Source: Nitrosomonadales bacterium
GTDB lineage: Bacteria > Pseudomonadota > Gammaproteobacteria > Burkholderiales > Gallionellaceae
Length of the DNA stretch: 64,000 nucleotides
Reading direction: 5' to 3'
NCBI GenBank assembly: GCA_016199835.1
Contig: JACQFX010000056.1
Coordinates: 62,001-126,000, forward strand
Shown: positions 33,497 to 63,300 of the stretch, one piece after another
Layout of the letters: each line of letters opens with the position of its first letter
Position numbering within the stretch: the first letter of the stretch is position 1
The notes under the pieces: generated by a model
Databases searched by the model: none
Seen by the model: the letters and a program-made list of their open reading frames with translations, nothing else
Told to the model about the DNA's origin: nothing
Position numbers and translations under genes: made by a program

Positions 33497-33523
33497 TGAG
33501 GTTTATAAAAGGAGGGCCGATAA
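33497..33523 (+). promoter_or_regulatory. FliA (sigma-28) type promoter upstream of flhDC
   Basis: TGAGGTTT (33497-33504, 6 of 8 to TAAAGTTT), an 11-base spacer and a perfect GCCGATAA (33516-33523). This is the full sigma-28 consensus layout. Transcription would start near 33530, giving a leader of about 200 bases before the flhD ATG. flhDC is usually class I and not driven by FliA, so this is notable. Confidence 0.65.
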
Positions 33524-33538
33524 AATAGCTGCAACCTG

Positions 33539-33733
33539 GATTTCGTCCCCTCGAATTCAGTTCGAATGCAGTGTTGGCAAGCTTCCACCGTGTTCGGCGG
33601 TGGAGCTGTTCCCGTGTAGGAAGACTTCTTACGCATAAATTGGAAACCTTCCAATTTATTCCCGGCCATCCGCATAGCAAGATGCGACCGTCGAAAGAGA
33701 CGATGTTGTTTTTGATTATACGGGGACGAAATC
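33539..33733 (+). promoter_or_regulatory. Structured flhD leader; 5' anti-SD pairs with flhD ribosome-binding site
   Basis: GATTTCGTCCCC (33539-33550) is the exact reverse complement of GGGGACGAAATC (33722-33733), which holds the flhD SD (GGGGA) and ends on the base before the ATG. Between the arms lie hairpins CCACCG/CGGTGG (33585-33603) and an 11-bp stem at 33635-33659. In RNA this would hide the SD. The same arrangement could also be a mobile element with 12-bp terminal inverted repeats. Confidence 0.6.
33635..33659. repeat. Perfect 11-bp inverted repeat in flhD leader
   Basis: ATAAATTGGAA, loop ACC, TTCCAATTTAT: an uninterrupted 11-bp dyad. It could be an RNA hairpin inside the leader or an operator for a dimeric regulator of flhDC. 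No U-tract typical of an intrinsic terminator follows. Confidence 0.8.
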
Positions 33734-34054
33734 ATGAAGACAGCTCAATTGCAGGAAGAGATCAGGGAAGCCAACTTGTCTTATATGTTGCTTGCGCGGC
33801 AAATGATACAAGAGGACAAGGAAGCGGCTATTTTCCGCCTGGGCATAAGCGAAGAAATGGCAGAGCTCATTTCTGGCTTGAGTCCGGCCCAGTTGCTCAA
33901 GATGGCTGCGACCAACATGTTGTTGTGCCGCTTCCGCTTCGACGAAAAACTGTTGCTCAATATGATCACGGATTACAACAAGGACAGGATGATGTCGCAG
34001 GCGCATACTGCCATTCTGATGGCGGGGCAGCCGATGGAAGTATTGGCTGCCTGA
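33734..34054 (+). CDS. flhD: Flagellar transcriptional activator subunit FlhD
   Basis: A 106-residue FlhD, which with FlhC forms the FlhD4C2 activator of class II flagellar promoters. It shows the typical helical start EIREANLSYMLLARQMIQED near residue 8 (seen as ANLSYMLLARQMIQED) and RLGISEEMAELISGLSPAQL near residue 36. FlhC follows by 25 bases. The GGGGA SD ends 7 bases before the ATG and lies in a 12-base inverted repeat with the leader's start, pointing to translational control. Confidence 0.95.
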   Translation: MKTAQLQEEIREANLSYMLLARQMIQEDKEAAIFRLGISEEMAELISGLSPAQLLKMAATNMLLCRFRFDEKLLLNMITDYNKDRMMSQAHTAILMAGQPMEVLAA

Positions 34055-34079: not shown

Positions 34080-34637
34080 ATGCGCAATAAGAGCGTCGTA
34101 ACTGAAGCGTATCAAATCCAGATTGCGGTGGAGTTGATTGAGCTGGGTGCGCGCTTGCAGTTGCTGCAGGAAGAGACGGCGTTGAGCCGCGAGCGTCTGC
34201 TCAAGTTGTACAAGGAAGTCAAAGGCGAGTCGCCGTCCAAGGGTATGCTGCCCTATTCCACCGACTGGTTCATGAGCTGGTCACCTAACATCCATTCCTC
34301 CTTGTTCATGGATATCCATCAGTTTCTGGTCACGCATACCAGCCTCTCGGGTGTCGAGGTGCTGATCAAGAGCTATCGCCTGTATCTCGAACAAATCAGT
34401 GTCAGCGGTGACGAGGCTGTGCTGAGTATTACGCGCGCCTGGTTTCTGGTGCGCTTCTTCGATGCAAAAATGCTGCAATCGACCGCTTGCTCCGAGTGTG
34501 GCGGACACTTCGTCGTGCATAGCAACGAACTGTATGTTGACTACATATGCGGCATTTGCCGCCCGCCTTCTCGCGCCGGGAAGACAAGCAAGAGAAATGA
34601 CGCGTTGGGCCGGTTGGTCGCGAACCCGGCATTTTAA
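34080..34637 (+). CDS. flhC: Flagellar transcriptional activator subunit FlhC
   Basis: A 185-residue FlhC, the DNA-contacting partner of FlhD. It shows AYQIQIAVELIELGARLQLL near residue 9 (seen as ELIELGARLQLLQEET) and a zinc site with four cysteines, CSECGGHFV (near 139-142) and CGICRPP (near 159-162). The length matches the family (about 190). It is co-transcribed with flhD and followed by motA after 128 bases. Confidence 0.95.
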   Translation: MRNKSVVTEAYQIQIAVELIELGARLQLLQEETALSRERLLKLYKEVKGESPSKGMLPYSTDWFMSWSPNIHSSLFMDIHQFLVTHTSLSGVEVLIKSYRLYLEQISVSGDEAVLSITRAWFLVRFFDAKMLQSTACSECGGHFVVHSNELYVDYICGICRPPSRAGKTSKRNDALGRLVANPAF

Positions 34638-34765
34638 CTGCTTACACTCCTGGCGAAAGCAATGGCACTTGGCTTTTCAGCCTGTTTCGGGATTAGCACA
34701 AAGGGGGGGATGTGGTACCCTATTGTCGTGCATTATTTCAAAATAATTATACGGGGAGAGGGGCC

Positions 34766-62580: not shown

Positions 62581-63300
62581 ATGAACATTATGTACACGCC
62601 AAGCGGATTAAGCGACAAGGAACAGTGCCTCAAGGAGTATGCGCCGCTGGTCAAGCGTATCGCGCACCATCTGATGGCACGGCTGCCCAGCAGCGTGGCG
62701 GTGGATGACATCATCCAGGCGGGCATGATGGGTCTGCTGGAAGCTGCCGGGCGGTATGACGAGTTGCGCGGTGCTCAATTCGAGACCTATGCCGCACAGC
62801 GTATACGCGGCTCGATGCTGGATGAGTTGCGCCAGGCCGACTGGATGCCGCGCAGTCTGCGCCGCGACATGCGCCGTATCGAGGCTGCGATGAGCAAGTT
62901 GCAGCAGCATCTTGGTCGACTGCCGAATGAAACGGAGATCGCCAGAGAGTTGGACATGCCGCTGACTGAATACCAGCAGATGCTGTTCGAGTCGCGCGGT
63001 GCGCAATTGGTTTATTACGAGGATTTTCATGAAGAGGGCGACGAGGATTTTTTCGACCGTTTTGAATTCGACAGTGATTCCGATCCGCTGGCAATGCTGC
63101 AAGACGAGGGTTTCCGCAATGCCCTGATCAAGGCGATAGACAATCTACCGGAGCGTGAACGCATGTTGATGGGCATGCATTACGAGCAGGAAATGAATTT
63201 GCGAGAGATCGGTGAGGTGATGGGAGTTAGCGAGTCGCGCGTATGTCAGTTGCATAGCCAGGCAGTGGCGCGCCTGCGTGTTTTGCTGAAAGGGCACTAA
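62581..63300 (+). CDS. fliA: Flagellar sigma factor FliA (sigma-28)
   Basis: A 239-residue sigma-28 directing late flagellar and chemotaxis genes. It shows region 2 (LVKRIAHHLMARLPSSVAVDD; AGMMGLLEAAGRYD; FETYAAQRIRGSMLDELR), a short region 3 and region 4 (RERMLMGMHYEQEMNLREIG; VSESRVCQLHSQAV). It lies two bases after flhG. Its consensus (TAAAGTTT-N11-GCCGATAA) appears upstream of flhDC and of the CXXCH receptor. Confidence 0.96.
   Translation: MNIMYTPSGLSDKEQCLKEYAPLVKRIAHHLMARLPSSVAVDDIIQAGMMGLLEAAGRYDELRGAQFETYAAQRIRGSMLDELRQADWMPRSLRRDMRRIEAAMSKLQQHLGRLPNETEIARELDMPLTEYQQMLFESRGAQLVYYEDFHEEGDEDFFDRFEFDSDSDPLAMLQDEGFRNALIKAIDNLPERERMLMGMHYEQEMNLREIGEVMGVSESRVCQLHSQAVARLRVLLKGH

Follow-up and report, generated by a model that had tools for sequence, protein, structure and literature searches.

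A predicted FliA-dependent RNA unit in the flhDC control region of Gallionellaceae may pair with the flhD ribosome-binding site

The region upstream of flhD appears to consist of two stacked modules, with a sigma-28-dependent short RNA from the distal module predicted to pair with the flhD Shine-Dalgarno (SD) sequence and thus to give negative feedback by FliA; we place the probability of this reading at roughly 0.6. Direct computational support comes from promoter matches, tandem copies, conservation and co-variation, and the rigid spacing of the operators. All coordinates are positions in the window, the whole 64,000-nt stretch of DNA that was analyzed (1 = first letter), and the genome to which it belongs comprises 2.81 Mb in 69 contigs. 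The relatives of the window are Gallionellaceae (Sideroxydans, Candidatus Nitrotoga, and related MAGs), and flhD was found in 111 of 158 family genomes. Counting from flhD, the gene order is flhD, flhC, motA, and fliA is located in the same window (62629-63288). The regulator genes and the two arms of the inverted repeat are as follows.

33734-34054, + strand: flhD, with its ATG at 33734 and a product identified as FlhD by profile matches (PF05247, E=1.3e-43; NF002783, E=1.3e-42)
34080-34637, + strand: flhC (PF05280, E=5.8e-86)
33539-33550, + strand: first arm (anti-SD), GATTTCGTCCCC, an exact complement that co-varies with the SD
33722-33733, + strand: second arm, the flhD SD region, GGGGACGAAATC, an exact reverse complement of the first arm

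A first-pass annotation had described the arms as exact reverse complements, with the second covering the flhD SD and ending on the base directly before the ATG, and both statements were correct. Its judgment that such a match is unlikely by chance was borne out when the 262-nt upstream region was resampled 20,000 times under a Markov-1 model: a 12-bp match with one arm within the last 20 nt arose at a rate of 1.5e-4. Single-strand folding gave z = -5.7 and a minimum-energy fold that holds the 12-bp helix; this z value is partly due to palindromes that we read as DNA operators. Rfam scans of the window and its relatives yielded zero matches. The elements of the distal module are listed below.

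33497-33523, + strand: FliA (sigma-28) promoter, TGAGGTTT-N11-GCCGATAA, predicted start near 33530
33536-33560, + strand: HP1 hairpin, CUGGAUUUCG-UCCCCU-CGAAUUCAG, with the anti-SD as its apical loop
33580-33607, + strand: P3, a GC-rich hairpin, AGCTTCCACCG-TGTTC-GGCGGTGGAGCT, terminator-like in relatives and with a poor T tail here

The FliA-like promoter that had been proposed at these positions was confirmed, its halves (33497-33504 and 33516-33523, separated by N11) matching 14 of 16 consensus positions, with both mismatches in the -35. When flhD upstream regions gathered from family genomes were scored against TAAAGTTT-N11-GCCGATAA, a score of at least 14 of 16 was reached by 63 of the 107 regions scored versus 0 of 535 shuffled regions; about 40% of the family flhD regions were without a strong FliA match. 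HP1 begins some 10 to 20 nt past the promoter, placing a sigma-28 promoter immediately upstream of the putative small RNA. The distal arm corresponds to the apical loop of HP1, which is kept across genera as UCCCCU/ACCCCUYG and, in the modeled pairing with the SD, would offer a conserved and accessible seed complementary to its target. For class B relatives, true stems paired better than swapped stems (0.717 versus a mean of 0.64 and a maximum of 0.69 among 500), and for class A the fixed-register stem test was not significant (0.704 versus 0.677, maximum 0.721), probably owing to bulges that displace the outer stem. The shuffle z of HP1 had a median of -2.0 in relatives and was only -0.4 in the window.

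P3, situated between HP1 and the operators, is the CCACCG/CGGTGG hairpin noticed earlier and was found in both the sequence and the fold; its pairing is conserved and its sequence is not. The terminator score lay beyond the null 5% point in 41 of 63 relatives, often with a T run, and no qualifying terminator was detected in the window itself. A more distant betaproteobacterium (L035:2201-2500) carries a FliA promoter, hairpins, and T-runs before flhD without the C-rich anti-SD loop, and the FliA unit may therefore predate the anti-SD function.

Downstream of P3 are the predicted elements of the proximal module.

33616-33632, no strand assigned: P4, distal palindromic operator, GTAGGAAGACTTCTTAC, RcsAB-box-like, assessed by spacing and A.C mismatch tests
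33635-33659, no strand assigned: P5, proximal palindromic operator, ATAAATTGGAA-ACC-TTCCAATTTAT, centered at about -42, 23.5 bp from the center of P4 and 31 bp from the -10 box
33678-33683, + strand: CAAGAT, -10 box of a predicted proximal flhDC promoter, with transcription expected to start near 33690

The palindrome at 33635-33659 had been reported as a hairpin, and its 11-bp arms are indeed present; as candidates judged from sequence, P4 and P5 fit DNA operators rather than RNA hairpins. Across the family, P4 follows the pattern GTARG-N7-CYTAC and P5 the pattern TCRGA..TCYGAT, and the P4-type pattern occurs at a single site in the organism's own genome. Of 68 distinct regions, 44 had the P4 and P5 centers spaced by 23.5 bp, and the other 24 had about double that spacing, 45.5-47.5 bp; inspection of the more widely spaced sequences revealed a good right half-site between P4 and P5, and some relatives probably possess three phased operators. 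The fourth position of P4 combined A with C in 22 of the 68 regions, which breaks the RNA pair. The hexamer exactly 31 bp past P5 had A, A, and T at positions 2, 5, and 6 in 67 of 67 sequences, chosen by a pattern that excluded the hexamer. Because the -10 box stands at this fixed distance, P5 would be centered near -42, which is a class II activator position, and P4 near -65. The rigid spacing, the A.C mismatches, and the fixed -10 distance suggest that the middle of the apparent leader is promoter DNA, and the operators together with the -10 box thus point to a separate proximal flhDC promoter, with a start near 33690 and an mRNA that would lack the first arm. RNAalifold applied to the whole leader recovered P4 and P5 and no more than 4 bp of the long helix, and an earlier candidate prompted by this, a riboswitch-like multiway junction, was abandoned in light of the spacing and A.C tests.

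The P4 palindrome, present as GTARG..CYTAC in the 68 distinct regions, is near the RcsAB box consensus TaAGaatatTCcta (PMC4325325), and E. coli RcsB binds a site of the RcsAB-box type at flhDC (PMC5829831). The likeness lies in the palindromic form, the similar sequence, and the location at flhDC; unlike the RcsAB box, the sites described here have a center about 1 bp longer, are tandem and phased, and occupy an activator position. The putative binder would be a dimeric activator, probably a response regulator of the NarL/FixJ type.

Several other features of the proximal region were observed. Within the region, conservation across the family is highest in GCAACCGTCGAA (GCGACCGTCGAAA in the window; 33684-33696), directly past the -10 box; this conservation exceeds the needs of a promoter, and the stretch possibly forms a 5'-end hairpin (GUC..GAC). 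A conserved upstream ORF starting from the ATG of this core was rejected on inspection, as the ATG is lost in relatives (e.g., ATATTC in Nitrotoga) and the frame relative to flhD shifts. In Sideroxydans, a further anti-SD, GTCCCCG, precedes the core in a proximal position and lies within the proximal promoter. The organism's own genome also encodes a diverged second flhD (53% identity; L037, G000:C64:35980-36249), and a similar second copy is found in several family genomes. By inspection, the region upstream of L037 flhD has similar palindromic operators, a similar -10 module, and a GCAAAATGCAACTGTCGAATC core, without the HP1 unit.

In rpoS-type cis-inhibited leaders, the SD can be covered by a strand from further upstream in the leader. 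A cis riboregulator of this kind would require the FliA promoter to produce a long-leader flhDC mRNA, in which the helix sequesters the SD until a factor (sRNA, Hfq, or CsrA) opens it. Such a leader agrees with the constant position of the unit directly upstream of flhD, with the presence of the helix in the minimum-energy fold of the window and in the folds of many relatives, and with the weak terminator tail in the window; the conserved pairing of the SD to an upstream strand also agrees with it, though a trans RNA would predict such pairing just as well. We nevertheless consider it unlikely, since the operator spacing of 23.5 or 46.5 bp, the P4 mismatches, and the fixed -10 distance suggest promoter DNA, terminator-like hairpins intervene between the arms, and promoter-HP1 copies occur in tandem. 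Unlike the rpoS-type leaders, this region has operators and a probable second promoter between the arms. The riboregulator proposed in the first-pass annotation is retained in part: pairing of the distal arm with the SD is conserved and co-varies, whereas a single continuous folded leader is improbable. If the main flhDC start lies near 33690, the first arm would be outside the mRNA and the distal unit would act in trans. Because relatives often have a terminator-like hairpin between the first arm and flhD, pairing is probably mainly in trans; the weak terminator tail and -35 leave room for a cis leader in the organism's own genome.

The proposed pairing is supported by the co-variation of loop and SD. 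Genera g1 (own), g5, g10, g11 (Nitrotoga), g13, and g14 (Sideroxydans) share an anti-SD near -190 opposite an SD arm near -14; part of g6 has the anti-SD at about -200 to -260 within different flanking sequence, and in some Gallionella-type (g6) genomes the loop/SD match is limited to the GGGG core. The arm flanks are lineage specific (GTCCCCTCGCA/TGCGAGGGGAC in Sideroxydans and GTCCCCTTGCA/TGCAAGGGGAC in Nitrotoga), and the window arms are extended on the other side than those of these two lineages. The duplex energy of true HP1:SD pairs averaged -20.6 kcal/mol versus -17.9 for permuted pairs (sd 0.38; 0/5000), and permutation within genera gave -19.95 kcal/mol (sd 0.24; 22/5000), a modest signal at that level. 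Because the CCCC/GGGG core is nearly invariant, the co-variation stems from the flanks. Presence of the unit was weakly associated with GGGG in the SD (p=0.03).

Target specificity was assessed by a loop-seeded test of 7500 candidate starts within 559 kb of the organism's own genome, in which flhD was the sole start with more than 8 seed-anchored Watson-Crick pairs (12, next 8). This test replaced a broad energy ranking over many alternative starts, which was noisy and put flhD at rank 8 of 379. The 12-mer ATTATACGGGGA precedes both flhD (about 33715-33726) and motA (about 34747-34758) and overlaps both SD regions; pairing of HP1 with motA is far weaker than with flhD (-15.2 versus -24.3 kcal/mol). 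These data bear on a further alternative, that the FliA promoter mainly provides positive feedback on flhDC, with HP1 and P3 serving only as a transcription attenuator and RNA stabilizer and the SD complementarity being a by-product of a C-rich loop. Conserved FliA promoters and conserved strong hairpins are compatible with that arrangement, but true pairs outperform permuted ones even when permutation stays within genera, and flhD is unique among the 7500 starts, leaving it distinctly improbable.

A search for the promoter followed by CCCCTYG gave 41 exact matches in 39 of the 158 family genomes, and the reversed-pattern control gave 0. Comparison of coordinates located all family matches of the promoter-anti-SD unit upstream of flhD; none was found away from flhD in the 158 genomes, a placement that would have supported trans action. 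Among 399 order genomes, the unit was present in 4 family genomes, and there was one unrelated match preceding a flgM-like reading frame (named by inspection) that we regard as a chance match. Four genomes possess tandem units, two recognized by the pattern match (G111 and G121) and two by promoter score and sequence (G109 and G110). In G121 (L067), the first of two tandem FliA-HP1 units, at about -330 to -250 from flhD, already has T7 after its HP1; it could possibly specify an RNA of about 50 nt with little beyond the anti-SD hairpin.

Two earlier suggestions fared poorly. An RNA thermometer, with heat melting the 12-bp helix, would account for the SD lying inside the predicted helix; however, we found no positive evidence for one, the scans of the window and relatives returned no known thermometer family in Rfam (though a novel one could escape such scans), the helix is very stable at about -24 kcal/mol, and the loop-hairpin architecture and operators would be left unexplained, so this option is very improbable. 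A mobile element bounded by 12-bp termini and inserted at the start codon would explain why the termini are inverted, but the sequence is in single copy across the organism's own genome rather than in several copies and sits at the orthologous place in many genera, whose arm sequences have diverged, which makes the likelihood of this option negligible.

For the favored trans-acting RNA, we envision the following sequence of events. The distal FliA promoter would generate a short RNA of about 80-110 nt that includes HP1 and the terminator-like hairpin. By forming a duplex of about 7-12 bp with the flhD SD, the C-rich HP1 loop would block translation of FlhD, so that late-stage FliA activity would feed back on the class I regulator. 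The proximal promoter, with operators at about -42 and -65, would supply an flhDC mRNA whose leader, about 44 nt long, would not include the first arm, and read-through of the distal transcript, which may happen in the organism's own genome given its poor T tail, would allow the same HP1-SD pairing in cis. From the sequence we infer that the distal unit is transcribed and terminated, that its effect is repression (given the SD occlusion), and what type of activator is involved. The fuller proposal, to which we give somewhat less than even odds and which we offer tentatively, is that of a family-specific FliA-dependent sRNA that is encoded within the flhDC control region, uses its loop to mask the flhD SD both in trans and in cis, and thereby provides direct last-to-first-tier negative feedback, with tandem copies tuning the dose.

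Neisseria sibling sRNAs are tandem and base-pair with ribosome-binding sites through single-stranded loops, and they are not known to be FliA driven. These siblings (NmsR, PMC5362039; NgncR_162/163, PMC9973317) differ in having metabolic targets. The sigma-28-dependent sRNAs of E. coli, UhpU, MotR, FliX, and FlgO, are driven by FliA and influence the flagellar program through base pairing (PMC10578931), as is predicted here from sequence. The E. coli RNAs are UTR derived, and UhpU reaches flhDC indirectly via lrhA (PMC10578931), whereas the present unit is located in the promoter region of flhDC and is complementary to the flhD SD itself. Post-transcriptional control of flhDC via base pairing is likewise known for ArcZ, OmrA/B, OxyS, and McaS, which act on the E. 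coli flhDC mRNA, and for AsflhD; that source does not describe them as FliA dependent (PMC10578931), and the likeness drawn here is to their mode of action. Campylobacter sRNAs are reported to be tied to FliA-dependent control (PMC11187230, PMC4626219). We found no description in the open-licence literature of a FliA-dependent RNA that derives from the flhDC control region and targets the flhD SD, and of the open-licence papers naming both Gallionella and flhDC, none appeared to concern such regulation.

How flagella synthesis is stopped once enough have been built is less understood than how it is started. If the proposal is true, a class III sigma factor would, by way of an RNA, turn off the class I regulator in a very short feedback circuit. 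This circuit would operate outside the enterics, in the iron- and nitrite-oxidizing Gallionellaceae, and the suggested feedback brake on flagella would be common to many relatives.
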